A stretch of DNA of 64,000 nucleotides from Blastocatellia bacterium (lineage in GTDB: Bacteria; Acidobacteriota; Blastocatellia; Pyrinomonadales; Pyrinomonadaceae). Shown here in pieces: positions 5,281-62,744 of this stretch. How positions within the stretch are numbered: the stretch's first letter is position 1; the number at the start of each line of letters is the position of its first letter. Under the pieces are notes generated by a model, which was given only the letters and a program-made list of their open reading frames with translations, was not told where the DNA came from and did not search any database. Location: NCBI GenBank assembly GCA_003168335.1, contig PMSM01000006.1, positions 62,001-126,000 on the forward strand. Direction: 5' to 3'. The translations under genes and the position numbers were made by a program.

Positions 5281-5287
5281 AAAAATT

Positions 5288-5546
5288 GTCCGACAAACTA
5301 AAGGAACCTCTGACTAAGTGTCTTGGACGCGTAGCGTCCGCATGAACTTAGCCCGGCGTTTCAACGCCGGGATCAGGTTAGTCTCTGTTCTCGTCGCGTA
5401 GCGACGATTGAATCCCTTGGTTTCAGGCGTCGCTACGCGACGCGAACACCTCGTTGCCCCTTCCCGGCCTTGAAAGGCCGGGCTAAATTCATACCGACGC
5501 TACGCGTCGAAAGTACTTGATCAGAAGTTCCTAGAGTTTAACGGAC
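5288..5546. mobile_element. MITE-like element A with GTCCGACAAACT termini
   Basis: The left end reads GTCCGACAAACTAAAGGAAC. The right end, read inward on the other strand, is GTCCGTTAAACTCTAGGAAC, and the match continues for about 32 bases. The inside carries smaller palindromes (GTCGCGTAGCGAC, CCCGGCGTTTCAACGCCGGG). No transposase is encoded. The right end overlaps the last codons and stop of the APC permease. Confidence 0.75.
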
Positions 5547-7003
5547 TTCTTCCGCATCAATCGCGCGAAGCCATAAAGGGCTGCCCCAATCAGTGACCAC
5601 ACCAACACGAGTTCCAGGCTGGTCAGCGAATGCTTCGCGATTCTGTCGCTCAGACTTTGCGTCATCAGCGTGCGTGTGTCCTGCACCACCTGCACGACGA
5701 TCAGCACGCCCATCGACAGGGCGGAGAGCAGAGCCGCACTGCGCTGCAGCCAAACCGGAAGGCTGATCGTAATCTCACCGTAGAGCCTGGGATTTCGCCG
5801 CGGTAACATCAAAAACGTCACACTGTGTAGGAAGTAAAGCAGAACCAGTGCAAAGACGGCAATGTTCAAAGCCAGTGAAAGCTGTTTGCTGATAACGAGC
5901 AGTAAACACGCAGCCAGCGTTAGAGTCAGAGCGCGAATCGGCGTCGCGGTGCGCGGATTGATTATGCCCAGCCAGCGCGGAGCCAGACCATCCTCGACGA
6001 ATATCAGCGCGAGCCGTGAAGGAACGATCAGCGAAGGATTCAAGGAGGTCGTGATCGCCATGATCGCTCCCAAAGTCACGAAGCTCGCCGCCCCCCAGGG
6101 CAGGTAAACCGCGGCGACTTCAGTCATCGGCGCGCTGCTCGAGCCGAGCCGCGCACCGGGCAACACACCGAACGCCACGACCGACATCAAAACGAAGATG
6201 AATGCCGTTACACTGATCCCTTTCAAGAAAACCATCGGCAAACGCCGCGTGCTGTCTTTGGTTTCTCCCGCGGTTTGGGCCAGAGATTCAAAGCCGGCAT
6301 AAGAAAAGAAGATCGGCGCCAGGCTCAGGGCAAATCCACCGGCGCCGTGAGTAATGAACGGCGAATAATTGGACGGGTGAATTGCAAACAATCCCGGAAT
6401 AACCAGCACGAAGATCGACAGCCCCAACAGCACACACATGGCCACCTGAATTCTGCCGAACCACCGCACGCCGACGACATGCACGAGGTAGAAAAACAGG
6501 AGGGCGCCGACGGCCAGCGATTGATGAACGAACTCGCCGCTGAATCGTCTGCCGGTAAGCTCGATCACATAGTCCGCCAGGGCGCTCGCCAGATAAGCAC
6601 CGGCACCGATGTAGGCGATGATCTTCAACCAGGATCCGATGTAAGCCGTAGCGTATCCGCCGAATGTGCGTGAGATGTGGAGGTATTCACCCCCAGGCTC
6701 GCGGCCCAGGGACGTCGAAATGAAAGCCGCATAAGGAACCGACGTCGCCAGAATCGCCGGCATCAGCACCAGGTAACCCAGAATCACGCTGGGACCGGTC
6801 AGAGACCACGCGTCGCTGGTCACTTTGAAGATGCCCGCGCCGATCAGAATTCCGATCAGCGCCGCATAAGATTCTATCGTGCCGAGATCGCGGCGCAGAC
6901 GGCTGACGATCGGACCGGCAGGTATGCTGGTATTCTGTGATTTGTTTTCGATCACTCTGTAACGCCTATTGTCGGAGTTCATGAGCGACGTGTAATACCG
7001 CAT
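5531..7003 (-). CDS. APC-family amino acid permease
   Basis: 490 residues with about 12 hydrophobic segments. TM1 carries the substrate and ion signature GILIGAGIF, and TM6 has FFSYAGFESLAQTAGE, both typical of amino acid-polyamine-organocation transporters. It should import or exchange amino acids across the inner membrane; the substrate cannot be told. The final residues KSVKL and the TAG stop lie inside the right terminus of the MITE-like element at 5288-5546, so the original C-terminus has probably been replaced. An alternative ATG at 6982 would shorten the N-terminus by 7 residues, and neither start has a clear ribosome site. Confidence 0.88.
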   Translation of the reverse strand: MRYYTSLMNSDNRRYRVIENKSQNTSIPAGPIVSRLRRDLGTIESYAALIGILIGAGIFKVTSDAWSLTGPSVILGYLVLMPAILATSVPYAAFISTSLGREPGGEYLHISRTFGGYATAYIGSWLKIIAYIGAGAYLASALADYVIELTGRRFSGEFVHQSLAVGALLFFYLVHVVGVRWFGRIQVAMCVLLGLSIFVLVIPGLFAIHPSNYSPFITHGAGGFALSLAPIFFSYAGFESLAQTAGETKDSTRRLPMVFLKGISVTAFIFVLMSVVAFGVLPGARLGSSSAPMTEVAAVYLPWGAASFVTLGAIMAITTSLNPSLIVPSRLALIFVEDGLAPRWLGIINPRTATPIRALTLTLAACLLLVISKQLSLALNIAVFALVLLYFLHSVTFLMLPRRNPRLYGEITISLPVWLQRSAALLSALSMGVLIVVQVVQDTRTLMTQSLSDRIAKHSLTSLELVLVWSLIGAALYGFARLMRKKSVKL

Positions 7004-34456: not shown

Positions 34457-35602
34457 ATGCGACTATCTGAAAGTAAACGACCAAACCGCCTGGCCTCGCT
34501 CGCGCTGTCGCTGCTAACTCTGTTTGCCTGTCTAATCGCAGTTCTCACTTCAACGGCATCGAGTGCGCGTCTTCATCCCAAGAAGTACACCGCTCAATCA
34601 ACTGCCCCCGCACAAGCCAAGCCCTTGCCGGCCCCGGCACGCTGGCGGGGGTTGATCGGTGAGTACGGACCCGACAATGACATTCTGATCATTCTGGAAG
34701 CGGACGGGAAGCTCGTCGCGCTCTTCAAGCGCGTCGACGTCTTTCCGCTAACTGAACTAGTCAGAGATTACTTCAGGTTTCCTGAGCGGGGACCACGTTC
34801 AGCCCAAGAACTAGTATTTACTCGCGATCGTCATGGGCGCGCGACCAAAGTCAAAATCCATCTGGGCGGTGGACCTGAATCTTTTCTTACGCTCAACCGC
34901 CGTCAGATTGAACCCGAAAGCGGAAATCAACTGCACGTTAAGCCGGTGCGCCCGGTCCCGGAGTTGATGAAGGAAGCGCGCGCCGCGCAACCGCCGAACG
35001 AGAACGGAGAGTTTCGCCAGACGGATCTGGTGGAACTGGCAAAGCTCGATCCGACCATCAAACTCGAAATCCGCTACGCGACGACTAACAACTTTCTCGG
35101 CACGATTTTCTATTCCGAAGGCCGCGCGTTCATGCAGCGTCCGGCGGCTGAAGCGGTCGTGCGCGCCCACCGCAAGTTGAAACAGCTCGGGTACGGCTTG
35201 CTCATTCATGACGCTTACCGGCCCTGGTACGTGACCAAAGTTTTCTGGGACGCGACGCCTGACGATAAGAAGGTCTTCGTCGCCGACCCGGCGAAAGGAT
35301 CGCGTCACAACCGCGGTTGCGCCGTTGACCTGACGCTTTATGATTTGAAGACGAAAAAGCCGGTGGAGATGGTCAGCACGTATGACGAGACCACTGACCG
35401 AGCTTATCCTGACTATCCGGGAGGCACATCCTTGCAGCGGTGGCACCGAAAACTATTGCGCGATGCCATGGAAGCGGAAGGCTTCACCGTTTACCAGGCG
35501 GAGTGGTGGCATTTTGATCATAAGGACTGGCAAAAGTATCGGATTGGCAATGTGCCCTTCGATCAGATCGGAACGAATCCGGTACAGAACCGCTCGCGGT
35601 AG
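34457..35602 (+). CDS. VanX/DdpX-like D-Ala-D-Ala dipeptidase, exported
   Basis: 381 residues. A signal peptide spans about residues 10-37. Residues 60-160 are an extra beta domain (WRGLIGEYGPDNDILIILE) not in VanX itself. The peptidase M15D core follows: Arg255 (DAYRPW), SRHNRGCAVD with His284 and Asp291, and EWWHF with Glu349 and His352. All zinc and catalytic residues are present. It should cleave D-Ala-D-Ala, probably for cell-wall recycling or as food, since no vancomycin resistance genes lie nearby. The last six residues, VQNRSR and the TAG stop, come from the inverted repeat at 35581, so the native C-terminus has been rewritten. Confidence 0.88.
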   Translation: MRLSESKRPNRLASLALSLLTLFACLIAVLTSTASSARLHPKKYTAQSTAPAQAKPLPAPARWRGLIGEYGPDNDILIILEADGKLVALFKRVDVFPLTELVRDYFRFPERGPRSAQELVFTRDRHGRATKVKIHLGGGPESFLTLNRRQIEPESGNQLHVKPVRPVPELMKEARAAQPPNENGEFRQTDLVELAKLDPTIKLEIRYATTNNFLGTIFYSEGRAFMQRPAAEAVVRAHRKLKQLGYGLLIHDAYRPWYVTKVFWDATPDDKKVFVADPAKGSRHNRGCAVDLTLYDLKTKKPVEMVSTYDETTDRAYPDYPGGTSLQRWHRKLLRDAMEAEGFTVYQAEWWHFDHKDWQKYRIGNVPFDQIGTNPVQNRSR

Positions 35603-35665
35603 CGAGCGGGCGCACTAGTCAAGTTGCACCCGTAACCCGCTTGCTACCGCGAGCGGTTCTGCAAC
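35581..35665. repeat. Inverted repeat that ends two convergent genes
   Basis: CAGAACCGCTCGCGGTAG on the plus strand at about 35585-35602 appears as its exact reverse complement at about 35644-35661. Each arm gives QNRSR and a TAG stop, to the VanX-like gene rightwards and to the NADAR gene leftwards. The hairpin might also terminate both transcripts. Confidence 0.85.
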
Positions 35666-37416: not shown

Positions 37417-37966
37417 GATGTTTTCGGAGTTTCAATCGGGAATCGATGAAGAGAGTCACCGGATGTTACGCGATTCGCCAGGTGTTCTCGGCGCCTCGCC
37501 GGCGAGCAACGCAAGCTAACTCAACACTAGGACGCAGAGTGCGCCGAGGTTTTGCCGAGAAAAGTGGTCACGCACGGCGATTACTTCTTAGCGCGCTAAA
37601 GCGGGCTCGGCTATCCGCAACGCTTTGTAACCCAGCCGTAAAAAGAGGCTGTGTCAAGACTCAGGTCTTCCAGCGCCGAAGGCGCCGAAATGTAATAGCC
37701 CAGGGCAACGCCCTGGGTAATCGTGCGTATGAGTCTTTCAAGCGCTGAAAGCGCGAAATGGCGACTACGTCCTCGCAATGGCCAGCATTAAGGGCGCCTT
37801 CGCTATCATTACGCGCCTTCAGCGCTTCCAAAATTTATTATGGCCCAACCCAGGGCGTTGCCCTGGGCTATTACATTTCGCGCCTTTGGCGCTGGGACTC
37901 CGAGTTTTGACACGGGCTCTAAAACGGCTGGGCTAGTAACCCCTCGCGCAAGCCGCGTGAACGCGG
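37417..37966. repeat. Long palindromic repeat region
   Basis: A run of several repeat types: GGACGCAGAGTGCGCCGAGG, TTAGCGCGCTAAAGCGGGCT, ACCCAGCCGTAAAA with its inverse CTAAAACGGCTGGG near 37920, GCCCAGGGCAACGCCCTGGG, AAGCGCTGAAAGCGCG and CGCGCCTTCAGCGCTT, and GGCGCGTTGC-type units. Parts repeat 4324-4542, 26376-26688 and 62430-62660. No gene is visible in the 550 bases. Confidence 0.7.
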
Positions 37967-57464: not shown

Positions 57465-57539
57465 TGGAGTGCGGCGACCTGTCGCCGCTTTCTCCTTACA
57501 AACTCAAAAACCAAAGCGGTGACAGGTCACCGCACTCCA
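57465..57539. repeat. Twin-hairpin repeat, TGGAGTGC family, ends gpmI
   Basis: Between TGGAGTGC and GCACTCCA lie GGCGAC-CT-GTCGCC and GGTGAC-AG-GTCACC. The right arm codes the last residues FGVR and the TGA of gpmI; the left end is 7 bases before the start codon of the membrane protein. Confidence 0.85.
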
Positions 57540-59110
57540 AAATCTTCCCGCAAATCTTGTCCAGTCATCTCCACGGGCTTGGCAATTCCGAGCAGGCCAA
57601 GCATCGTCGGCGCCACGTCCTGCAACGCTCCGCCGGCGCGAAGTTTTAGGCCGAGAGAATCTTCATCAATGAGATGAAACGGGACCGGATTCGTGGTGTG
57701 CGCGGTGTGCGGCTGGCCGGTCTTCAGATCGATCATCTGTTCGGCGTTGCCATGATCGGCGGTGATCAAAGTAGTGCCGCGCGCGGTCCGCATCGCTTTG
57801 GTGATCCAACCAAGGCACGTATCAACGTACTGGCAGGCTTCAATCGTTTTATCGAGCATGCCCGTATGGCCCACCATGTCAGGATTCGCAAAGTTCACGA
57901 CGAACACATCTGTCTCGCCTTCCTCGATCGCGCGCAAGAGCTTGTCGGTGATCTTGAACGCAGACATCTCCGGCATCAAGTCGTAGGTCGCAACTCTGGG
58001 TGAAGGGATGAGCAGACGCTTCTCGAAGGGAAACTCCTGCTCGATGCCGCCATTAAAAAAGTATGTGACGTGCGCGTACTTCTCAGTTTCAGCCAGGCGA
58101 AGGTTGCGCACTCCGCAGGACGCAAAGACTTCGGCCAGCACATTGACCAGGTGCGCGGGCGTGAAAGCTACCGGCAAAGGATAGGTCTTGTCGTAGACGG
58201 CAAAGCAAACGAAATGCACGTGCGGGCGCTGCGGCGCCGAAAAAGCATCGAACCCGGGCACGGCCAGCGCGGCGGTAATTTCCCGCGCGCGGTCGGCGCG
58301 AAAGTTAAAGAAGATCACCGAATCGCCATCCTGAATCGTGGCTACGGGTTCGCCGCTGGCGCGGGTAACGACGATGGGCTCGACAAACTCGTCAGTGATT
58401 CCGTGCTCGTAGGACTTTCGGATCGCAGCCAGGGGATCCGTGGTCCGCTCACCTTCGCCATTCACCAGAAGTTTGTACGCGCGCTCAATCCGCTCCCAGT
58501 GCTTGTCGCGATCCATCGCGTAGTAGCGCCCAACCAACGTAGCAATCTCGCCCACGCCGATCTCCCCGCACTTGTCCTGCATCGCCGCGACATACTTTTC
58601 CGCGGAAGAAGGCGGCGTGTCGCGCCCGTCCAGAAAGCAATGAAGAAAGACGCGTCTCACTTCGTACTCTTTCGCCAGGCGCAGCAGCGCATAAGCATGC
58701 TCCTGCGACGAATGAACCAGGCCGTCTGAGACCAGTCCGATGATATGCAAAGCGCGATCGTGTTTTGCCGCGCCGTCCATGGCCGCATTGAGCGCCAGAT
58801 TCTGAAAGAACTCGCCGGTTTCGATCGAGTGGTTAATCCGTTCAATGTCGGTGAGCACCACGCGGCCCGCGCCCAGGCAGAGATGGCCGACATTCGAATT
58901 GCCCATCACGCCTTTCGGCAGGCCCACGCACTCTCCCGACGCCTCGATCAAAGTGTGCGGATATTTCTCGCGCAGCTCGTCGTAGTAAGGCATCTCGGCG
59001 AGGGCGATCGCGTTGCCTTCGCGTTCGGCGCGATAACCAAAGCCGTCAAGGACGATGAGCGCGAGTGGACCTTGTCTTTTATTCACATTTTGCTTTCTGT
59101 ACCAGGGCAT
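57527..59110 (-). CDS. gpmI: 2,3-bisphosphoglycerate-independent phosphoglycerate mutase
   Basis: 527 residues. Metal site Asp22 (LIVLDGFG), catalytic Ser72 in MGNSNVGH (family usually MGNSEVGH), HCFLDGRDTPP, FFNFRADRAREI and the second metal set MVGHTG and TADHGNAEQM. It interconverts 3- and 2-phosphoglycerate in glycolysis, manganese dependent. The ATG at 59110 directly follows the zinc-ribbon stop TAG, so translation may be coupled; a GTG nine codons in (NVNKRQGP) is a possible alternative. The last residues are from the TGGAGTGC repeat. Enolase, the next glycolytic enzyme, lies 2 kb away on the same strand. Confidence 0.95.
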   Translation of the reverse strand: MPWYRKQNVNKRQGPLALIVLDGFGYRAEREGNAIALAEMPYYDELREKYPHTLIEASGECVGLPKGVMGNSNVGHLCLGAGRVVLTDIERINHSIETGEFFQNLALNAAMDGAAKHDRALHIIGLVSDGLVHSSQEHAYALLRLAKEYEVRRVFLHCFLDGRDTPPSSAEKYVAAMQDKCGEIGVGEIATLVGRYYAMDRDKHWERIERAYKLLVNGEGERTTDPLAAIRKSYEHGITDEFVEPIVVTRASGEPVATIQDGDSVIFFNFRADRAREITAALAVPGFDAFSAPQRPHVHFVCFAVYDKTYPLPVAFTPAHLVNVLAEVFASCGVRNLRLAETEKYAHVTYFFNGGIEQEFPFEKRLLIPSPRVATYDLMPEMSAFKITDKLLRAIEEGETDVFVVNFANPDMVGHTGMLDKTIEACQYVDTCLGWITKAMRTARGTTLITADHGNAEQMIDLKTGQPHTAHTTNPVPFHLIDEDSLGLKLRAGGALQDVAPTMLGLLGIAKPVEMTGQDLREDFGVR

Positions 59111-59338
59111 CTATGATTTTGTTTGATACTTGGTCCCGCACACTGGACATTGCATTAGTTCCTTGATGCCGCTAATCGGCAGCACGGGAATGATGAAGAA
59201 CAGCGTGATGAATCGCATCCCCTGCTTCTTTGCAAAGGTGTCCACGGTCCCGCATTTACCGCACTTCATCTGATTTGGCACGGGCTGTGATCCCCACGAA
59301 AAGAAGTGCGAGCCGATGATGAAGAAGAAAGCGATCAT
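59111..59338 (-). CDS. Small zinc-ribbon membrane protein
   Basis: 75 residues from the ATG at 59338. Residues 1-14 are hydrophobic (MIAFFFIIGSHFFSWG); then CGKCG and, near the C-terminus, CPVCG give a zinc ribbon, with a second hydrophobic stretch FITLFFIIPVLP between. Such small ribbon proteins are widespread and uncharacterised. Its stop abuts the gpmI start. The upstream side is the left terminus of element E, 7 bases away. Confidence 0.72.
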   Translation of the reverse strand: MIAFFFIIGSHFFSWGSQPVPNQMKCGKCGTVDTFAKKQGMRFITLFFIIPVLPISGIKELMQCPVCGTKYQTKS

Positions 59339-59344
59339 GCTCGT

Positions 59345-59724
59345 GTCCGACAAACTTCAGAAACCTCTGAACAAGTATCGTTGGCTGCAAAAGTATTAGC
59401 CCGTCGAGGAATTCTTTGCGCCAATCCCTGACATCCCAGGCCCGAAGGGCCGACATGCAATAGCCACGCCCGTCAGGGCGTGGTCGCGATCGTCTCGATG
59501 AATCTTGAGGCCCGAAGGGCCGGCACTTTATGCCATCCGAGGTCAATATTGCTTGTGTCGCACCTTCGGCGCTTATTCGTCTTAACCAGCTTTCGGATCC
59601 ACGCCCTTACGGGCGCGGCTATTGCCTGCCCTACGGGCCTAAACTCAGGGAACCGCCCTCTCCGGCGACCATCCCAAATTCTTCGCCTCACGACTTCTTC
59701 AGAGCTTCCTAAAGTTTGTCGGAC
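59345..59724. mobile_element. MITE-like element E
   Basis: Left end GTCCGACAAACTTCAGAAAC, right end (inward) GTCCGACAAACTTTAGGAAG. Inside are two AGGCCCGAAGGGCCG hairpins and CCACGCCCGTCAGGGCGTGG and CACGCCCTTACGGGCG. It fills the whole space between the GNAT gene, whose stop lies in the right terminus, and the zinc-ribbon gene. No transposase. Confidence 0.8.
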
Positions 59725-60182
59725 TTCAACCAATAGTCCGGGCTCTCTTTCATATTCGGGTCAGGCCGCTCCATCCAACGCTCTGGCCGGTGCAGTTTGA
59801 TAAAGCCGAATCGTTCGTACAATCCGTGCGCGTCTTTCGTTGACAAGACCCAACGGCGGAATCCCTGCAACTGCGGATGCGCGATCATTACCTCCATCAG
59901 CCACTTTGACAGTCCGCGGCGGCGATGTTCCGGCAACACGAAGACGTCGGCTATCCAGGCGAACGTTGCATAGTCAGTCACGACCCGTGCGAACCCGACC
60001 TGCTCCAAATTCCTGTAGATACCAAAGCAGAGCGAGTTCTCGATCGATCGCCGCACCACTTCCAGGCTTCGACCCGTCGCCCAGTACGAGGTGTTCGAGA
60101 GATAGTCGTGAATCAGCTCGATGTTAAGGCGTGAGCGATCAGTACTGATCGAGTATTCGCCGCGCTCCCAGGATTCAGGCAT
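59709..60182 (-). CDS. GNAT-family N-acetyltransferase
   Basis: 157 residues from the ATG at 60182; an ATG at 60224 is less likely since the next M begins the conserved part. The acetyl-CoA motif is FVLPEHRRRGLSKWLMEVM, and RWVLSTKDAHGLYERFGF is the typical closing strand-helix. It acetylates an unknown amine. The last residues KSDKL and the TAG stop lie inside the right terminus of element E. Confidence 0.85.
   Translation of the reverse strand: MPESWERGEYSISTDRSRLNIELIHDYLSNTSYWATGRSLEVVRRSIENSLCFGIYRNLEQVGFARVVTDYATFAWIADVFVLPEHRRRGLSKWLMEVMIAHPQLQGFRRWVLSTKDAHGLYERFGFIKLHRPERWMERPDPNMKESPDYWLKSDKL

Positions 60183-61065: not shown

Positions 61066-62744
<1,679 letters not shown>

Follow-up and report, generated by a model that had tools for sequence, protein, structure and literature searches.

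How does a short inverted repeat come to end one gene and to stop a few bases before the start of the next? This question is raised by element E, which lies between two minus-strand genes, one coding for a GNAT acetyltransferase and the other for a short protein with a zinc ribbon. We analyzed E within a stretch of 64,000 nucleotides (the window) from the genome of a Blastocatellia bacterium (assembly GCA_003168335.1, contig PMSM01000006.1, forward-strand positions 62,001 to 126,000). The original prediction held that E and element A, at an unrelated locus of the window, share a layout with a stop codon inside one terminus and a start codon just past the other, and that this layout points to insertion preference near gene ends or to selection for elements that replace untranslated regions. 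We find that E is best described, with a probability of roughly 0.7, as a REP/BIME-like non-autonomous mobile element that has a core probably moved by a Y1 transposase and that landed on the end of a gene. The observed basis of this explanation is the anatomy of the element, its copy number, a bias toward stop codons and the absence of a clear duplication at elements of its family (SDKL), together with RF01687 arms beside Y1 genes and an element-free junction in another genus.

The observation that E is an inverted repeat capping the GNAT gene is confirmed (Table 1). The same exact 13-mer stands at both ends (59345–59357 on the plus strand and 59712–59724 on the minus strand). With up to two mismatches this 13-mer matches nine times in the window against 1.45 expected, a count that none of 100 shuffles reached. 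Folded as a single strand, E attains −176.1 kcal/mol compared to a shuffle mean of −116.4 kcal/mol (z −10.5, 0 of 100 shuffles as good). As predicted, the GNAT open reading frame ends in ...DYWLKSDKL-stop with its TAG within the E terminus. Since this frame enters the right terminus, the four codons and the TAG are part of E. The ATG of the zinc-ribbon gene (59338–59336) is five bases away from base 59344, which corresponds to the predicted seven positions when counted from 59345. This start is supported by the homologue in a different genus (genome G034), which begins with MISFFFII where the protein described here begins with MIAFFFII. The best named matches of the mutase encoded by the next gene downstream (70–71% identity) are from Pyrinomonadaceae and Acidobacteria MAGs; the 80 loci of this comparison include many distant organisms and served for their names alone. 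E was also considered as an intrinsic terminator, and by eye its sequence showed no T-run. Absent from the original prediction is the nested structure of E, in which termini and arms of the SDKL type surround a separate palindrome.

Table 1. Positions of element E, its parts and the neighboring genes, and of the probable element A, in window coordinates
Feature	Position	Strand	Remarks
Element E, 382-bp inverted repeat enclosing a second palindrome	59344..59725
Left terminus TGTCCGACAAACTT, SDKL-family end	59344..59357	+	13-mer with 89 exact genome copies
Left arm, variant SDKL type (CAGAAACCTCTGAACAAGT...)	59358..59437	+
Inner palindrome, Acido-Lenti-1 family, about 203 bp	59438..59640		Elsewhere in the genome with unrelated flanks
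RF01687 (Acido-Lenti-1) match, left arm of inner palindrome	59438..59483	-	52.6 bits, gathering score 37
Right arm	59641..59711	-	Complementary to left arm near terminus
Right terminus	59712..59725	-	Encodes S-D-K-L on the minus strand, followed by the GNAT TAG (59709-59711)
GNAT acetyltransferase gene	59709..60182	-	PF00583, 1.7e-14; last four codons and stop from E
Zinc-ribbon gene	59111..59338	-	PF17032, E 1.6e-5, 26 bits, below the curated cut-off of 28.9
2,3-Bisphosphoglycerate-independent phosphoglycerate mutase gene, next gene downstream	57527..59110	-	PF06415, PF01676
Probable element A	5287..5549 (right end approximate, by eye)		Same layout as E

The outer layer of E belongs to a large family. 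In the fetched loci, the canonical SDKL element measures about 70–90 bp and consists of TGTC plus a 20-bp hairpin CGACAAACTTCAGTTTGTCG, a linker and then an inverse copy, with terminal inverted repeats of 14 bp; the ends of E, with their CAGAAACCTCTGAACAAGT arms, are a variant of this form. The fetched loci from this genome (G000) contain 58 such pairs with lengths from 57 to 387 bp, and 16 of the 58 are flanked on one or both sides by a sequence with CTTT, as in repeat D1. Genome-wide, the 13-mer end occurs in 89 exact copies (reversed control: 0) and, with at most one mismatch, in 155 copies (reversed control: 8). The hairpin pattern, again with at most one mismatch, was found in 14 of 60 genomes, including this one and G034 with 298 matches, and in none of the other 46. 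Part of the left arm of E is common to elements at 5287 and 55969 of the window and at two further loci (L040 and L076). The element at 5287 is probably the element A of the original prediction (5287 to about 5549). There the predicted layout holds: the gene at 5531–7003 closes with KKSVKL-stop within the right terminus, and 5280 is the start of the following predicted gene.

Some SDKL copies form larger assemblies. In G034, most SDKL pairs with lengths below 70 bp are, by eye, nested in a GGTAGTGGGTCAGTTT palindrome. In this arrangement a 56-bp pair sits inside a GGTAGTGGGTCAGTTT...AAACTGACCCACTACC palindrome in mid-intergenic position, with divergent genes on either side in 12 of 26 cases (carriers include L240, L244, L249–L252, L254 and L256). 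At another locus of G034 (L235:2484–3051) four SDKL elements follow one another, the first directly after a stop codon.

The palindrome inside E has a different identity. Its left arm is a member of the Rfam family RF01687 (Acido-Lenti-1) by covariance-model score, and copies of the same palindrome with unrelated flanks occur for example at L032, L034 and L035. This genome contains 136 RF01687 matches, 101 of them above the cut-off, compared to none in 14 control genomes. Across the phylum the family was found in 17 of 60 genomes, this one included. Elsewhere in the window (37672–37893), a pair of RF01687 matches forms a perfect 33-nt inverted repeat, which is a loose Acido-Lenti-1 element.

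RF01687 arms also stand beside transposase genes. We examined 50 loci with a match to the Y1_Tnp profile from 11 genomes, representing 50 of 117 matches (14 in this genome, of which 11 exceed the cut-off, 6 in G034, and 30 of the 97 in nine others). At 32 of 48 loci, the two flanks of the Y1 gene match each other in inverted orientation over 13 nt or more, compared to 0 of 48 for control flanks. RF01687 above its gathering score adjoins the Y1 open reading frame at 9 of the 50 loci, on both sides in L202, L207, L287 and L306 and on one side in L201, L229, L292, L301 and L308; the other 41 lack such a match. Usually, the left match is on the minus strand and the right match on the plus strand. 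Within 400 bp of the 14 Y1 matches of this genome we counted six RF01687 matches, against 0.40 expected from a uniform spread. Three other Acidobacteriota families provide further examples: L347 (G086) with 53 bits on one side of the Y1 gene and 50.5 bits on the other, L328 (G064) with 38.3 and 35.2 bits, and L322 (G081) with 40.4 bits on the left and 27.2 bits on the right. L207 and L322 contain an extra inner match on the left in opposite orientation. L305, where RF01687 matches are close to a Y1 gene but arranged differently, was left out of the counts. Searching in the other direction, we found a Y1-like stretch in 7 of 47 loci around RF01687 matches, a set in which many loci come from this genome and some regions were chosen by hand; of the seven, L351 overlaps L328, L343 apparently overlaps L322, and L325 is partial. 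The Y---Q--HH signature occurs at 23 of the 50 Y1 loci, and RF01687 adjoins 8 of these 23 compared to 1 of the other 27.

At L202, L207, L287, L306 and L347, a Y1_Tnp gene is thus bounded on both sides by RF01687 hairpins above the cut-off. Because the arms adjoin Y1 genes at 9 of 50 loci and in three further families, the best reading of RF01687 is that of a transposon end. Other repeats of the window flank Y1 genes by eye: D4 at L214 and L234, D7 at L211 and L231, and D1 at L212 and, on one side, at L213. L211 (2851–3037, this genome) also contains a 6S RNA match (58.3 bits) about 1 kb from its Y1 match. SDKL ends were found beside none of the 50 Y1 loci; three matches with two mismatches are 1.1 kb away or inside the open reading frame. 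Since these 50 loci (of 117 matches) show no SDKL ends, the outer layer of E is left without an assigned transposase.

This result leads to the question as to which type of enzyme may have inserted the outer layer. RUP and NEMIS are named examples of MITE-type elements. E could be a classical MITE that depends on a DDE transposase, bears terminal inverted repeats and has a target duplication like RUP or NEMIS (PMC2229807, as excerpted), and its 14-bp terminal repeats, its intergenic location and the SDKL ends missing from all 50 Y1 loci would suit such an origin. The ends of SDKL elements are themselves hairpins, however, as in REPs, and the expected duplication was not observed: among 49 SDKL elements shorter than 135 bp, a direct repeat abutting both termini occurs in none at 3–9 bp and in one at 2 bp. 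With shifted boundaries, words of at least five bases are common to both sides in 7 of 49 elements compared to a shuffle mean of 3.5 and maximum of 9. This is no clear excess, although SDKL elements may have a short or decayed duplication. These data fit single-strand transposition better than a DDE enzyme, without proving it, and we consider the DDE origin improbable.

The bases next to the termini could also bear on how insertion sites are chosen. In the same size class (<135 bp), 64 of 98 ends have an A immediately outside the terminus, compared to 24% A in intergenic DNA, and the most common trinucleotide is TGA (13 of 98). Of 49 elements, 24 have GA outside a single end, 1 outside both ends and 24 outside neither. 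These bases may represent a target motif.

To see whether E represents a general layout, we surveyed the positions of SDKL elements relative to genes at 60 loci (402,076 bases) of the 5.16-Mb genome plus the window, all picked for holding ends. These loci cover the 89 exact ends and, among the 100 matches listed of 155, a few ends with one mismatch. Genes were called with a home-made hexamer model, and 15 single ends as well as element A, with a right end too diverged for the pair finder, were left out of the counts of 55–58 elements. Three of the 58 paired elements are located within genes. Among the 55 between genes, a stop codon is located 0–9 nt outside a terminus in 27, compared to at most 4.9% of the insertion points in the 299 gaps of these loci that contain no element. 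A stop codon inside the element was found in 4 of 55, namely E and L110 (both SDKL), L089 (VRQTSVCR) and L114 (by one base). Both classes together comprise 30 of 55, since L089 counts under either. In the 39 stop-to-start gaps that hold an SDKL element, 33 elements are nearer to the stop and 6 are nearer to the start (sign test 1.4e-5). In these gaps the distance to the stop is at most 9 nt in 21 cases, compared to 11.3 under uniform placement (P 0.00015). The corresponding number for start codons is 7 against the same 11.3, so that no enrichment at starts was found in these gaps, and 10 of the 55 between-gene elements have a start codon 0–9 nt outside a terminus.

With this survey we could establish which parts of the original prediction stand. 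A preference for gene ends is supported by the stop-side bias. The paired layout is not general: a stop inside or within 9 nt of one side combined with a start within 9 nt of the other occurs in 5 of 55 elements, and the layout linking stop and start in E is uncommon. C-terminal S[DV]KL sequences do recur, as predicted, though rarely: SDKL in E and L110 and SVKL in element A among 431 predicted genes in the end-holding loci of this genome, and a single case (L271) among 307 genes in those of G034. We also considered a start-side rule by which the terminus would supply a Shine–Dalgarno GGA, given that the terminus ends with GGACA near several starts. This rule was dropped because starts are not enriched. 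The same survey in G034 (58 pairs from 52 loci, among the matches listed) showed a weaker form of the trend, with 10 of 20 elements of at least 70 bp near a stop compared to 5.8 expected (P 0.013) and a P of 0.09 for the mean relative position. The bias is absent from the G034 elements shorter than 70 bp, where 0 of 26 are within 0–9 nt of a stop.

The GNAT gene provides a second view on the same question, since an orthologue is present in all ten relatives that were searched. In G034, from another genus, the GNAT gene ends with HVT-stop and is followed after 18 nt by the zinc-ribbon ATG with no element in between; given the distance between genera, this junction may differ at base level from the sequence into which E inserted. 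In G014, no palindrome was seen at the GNAT end. In contrast, all seven genomes of the genus, including this one, contain by eye a palindrome at or near this gene end. In the genome under study this is the SDKL palindrome, and in G002 and G004 it is of the D4 family with QNPER-stop and QNPEQ-stop. In G001 and G006 the palindrome has CCGTTTAGA ends, the TAG of which is the stop codon, with an arm that in G001 pairs across a run of N. G003 has an Acido-Lenti-1-like pair that begins 26 nt past the stop, and G005 another palindrome that begins 5 nt past the stop. One common insertion may account for each of the pairs G002/G004 and G001/G006.

We quantified this pattern with a fixed inverted-repeat score. 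A score of at least 14 was reached at the GNAT end in five of the seven genomes (G002 scored 12, at another place, and G006 scored 9), compared to 25 of 130 background gene ends drawn from 248 (297 minus 49 near SDKL elements). Other genera scored 8 (G014), 7 (G034), 13 (G010) and 10 (G028). The GNAT stop is inside the palindrome in five of seven genomes by eye and in three of seven (G000, G001 and G004) by the fixed score, compared to 12 of 297 sampled gene ends in this genome, a set in which the gene-score filter of 30 excluded the GNAT gene of E itself (29.6), and 4 of 186 in G034. The GNAT end looks enriched in palindromes within an already palindrome-rich setting, and the presence of different palindrome families at the end of one gene across a genus is among the stronger results of this analysis. 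Two other palindromes of the window touch on this subject. A D4-family palindrome at 35585–35661 apparently lies between convergent genes; two genes of the window read QNRSR-stop from a D4 arm, and one palindrome may thus supply both stops. At about 57510–57545, the stop of the mutase gene (REDFGVR-stop) is inside a palindrome that resembles repeat D1.

Several processes could place such elements at gene ends. The layout of E might be coincidence, given a genome that is rich in palindromes and short in its intergenic gaps, and both the 25 of 130 sampled gene ends with a palindrome beginning near the stop and the rarity of the exact layout are in line with this idea. Evidence against chance comes from the 33 stop-side placements against 6 in the same gaps and from stops inside palindromes at three of seven GNAT ends, compared to 12 of 297 sampled gene ends. 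Coincidence is largely refuted for the stop-side bias and stands for the start side; for the layout of E as a whole we regard it as quite unlikely. Alternatively, selection may keep elements near stops where the transcribed hairpin would act as an mRNA stabilizer, a transcription attenuator or a regulator of translation. The 27 of 55 elements found 0–9 nt after a stop, the strong fold of E and the several palindrome families seen by eye on or close to the GNAT end across the seven genomes of the genus would agree with such a signal, as would the 15-nt rule, counted from the stop codon, for effects of E. coli REPs on translation (PMC12306157, in an excerpt citing Liang et al. 2015). The palindromes are, however, unrelated sequences in different species, the short elements of G034 are never near a stop, and position alone cannot separate selection from tolerance. 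Selection for elements that replace untranslated regions, as proposed in the original prediction, is not demonstrated by these data, and selection in the broader sense appears unlikely to us.

Insertion machinery that targets gene ends, by way of an A-ended target or of single-strandedness or terminators at 3' ends, is a possible but doubtful explanation. The excess of A and the recurrence of TGA outside the termini are what such targeting could produce, and so is the presence of several palindrome families at one gene end; yet direct abutment to a stop codon is limited to 6 of 55 elements, and the preference for A is general rather than tied to stops. Tolerance in short 3' flanks could also account for the gene-end pattern.

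Returning to the mobile-element explanation, we propose that E may have formed as follows. An inverted repeat of the SDKL family carries the RF01687 palindrome inside, and this core was probably moved in trans by a single-strand Y1 transposase (IS200-like, of the subclass-1.2 type), as suggested by the RF01687 arms at Y1 loci. The outer SDKL element would have inserted where the GNAT and zinc-ribbon genes meet, and its in-frame terminus supplies SDKL and the stop codon to GNAT. The location at a gene end would mainly arise because only short 3' flanks and the last few codons tolerate insertions. Against this explanation speak the SDKL ends missing from all 50 Y1 loci examined, the 41 of these loci that lack adjoining RF01687 above the cut-off, and the weaker stop-side bias in G034. 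We also lean, somewhat beyond even odds, toward a joint reading in which RF01687 is no sRNA gene but the double-hairpin end of Y1 subclass-1.2 transposons and gene termini are a shared landing niche. The transposon-end part would describe a widespread Acidobacteriota family with deleted copies nested in other palindromes; the niche part would describe unrelated palindromes that repeatedly reach the same gene end, take over its stop and give different protein tails in sister species.

Comparison with known systems places E close to, but not within, described families. Like REP/BIME/REPIN sequences with their RAYT (TnpA-REP) enzymes, SDKL elements are short hairpins in inverted pairs with many copies and mosaics, mostly outside genes (58 pairs, 3 inside) and biased to 3' gene ends. 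They differ by their foot, which is TGTC followed by CGACAAACTTCAGTTTGTCG instead of GTAG, and by ends that adjoin none of the 50 Y1 loci (11 genomes, 50 of 117 matches), where a RAYT-type element would; moreover, E nests one palindrome family in another. According to the available portion of PMC3733652, REPs are found mainly downstream of coding regions and GTAG REP termini often supply the TAG stop to flanking open reading frames. Because of this precedent, the terminus-supplied stop of GNAT adds one more family to a pattern that is already published. The same portion describes CGTC-tagged REPs without a dedicated transposase, which SDKL elements resemble by a four-nucleotide foot ending in GTC, by paired units and by no adjacent transposase having been found; the SDKL foot is TGTC, a CCA tail was not seen by eye, and the five phyla listed there for CGTC repeats do not include Acidobacteria (PMC3733652). 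Rickettsia palindromic elements insert in frame within genes and contribute residues (PMC2229807, as excerpted); E likewise gives residues to a protein, but unlike these elements it ends the gene.

For the inner palindrome, the closest precedent is the TIRYT/TIRtron of Acidobacteria, where Y1 genes are flanked by long inverted repeats as at the RF01687 loci, and where some repeats are double-palindromic or repeated in the genome (PMC3733652, available portion). The word Rfam is absent from that portion of the text, and the sequences in its Figure 9 could still overlap with RF01687. The enzymes at L201 and L202 resemble TnpA-Y1 subclass 1.2, to which they were assigned by motif (Y---Q--HH, about 150 aa; PMC6006769, excerpt). 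In the table of that excerpt, subclass 1.2 occurs mainly in Cyanobacteria and Bacteroidetes and has no REP, whereas 8 of the 23 Y---Q--HH loci studied here have adjoining RF01687. Acido-Lenti-1 is listed as a likely RNA that is not cis-regulatory (PMC2864571, excerpt); in the present data its behavior is that of a paired end of a transposon. No link between RF01687 or Acido-Lenti-1 and a transposase was found in literature titles and the openings of abstracts. Judged against these partial sources, the link between RF01687 and Y1 appears unreported, and REP termini that supply stop codons were already published.

E is now mostly explained, with the stop-side bias and RF01687 as a transposon end among the stronger results. 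These findings provide a testable explanation, as a mobile element, for an RNA family that Rfam lists without a known function. With this explanation, REP-like biology would come to include the subclass-1.2 Y1 enzymes; such repeats are missing for them from the excerpted text of PMC6006769. The end of the GNAT gene offers one locus at which to trace, from one sister species to the next, how different mobile families replace a stop codon. In genome annotation, the protein tails SDKL, QNPER and QNRSR look element-derived and may hold no family signal.
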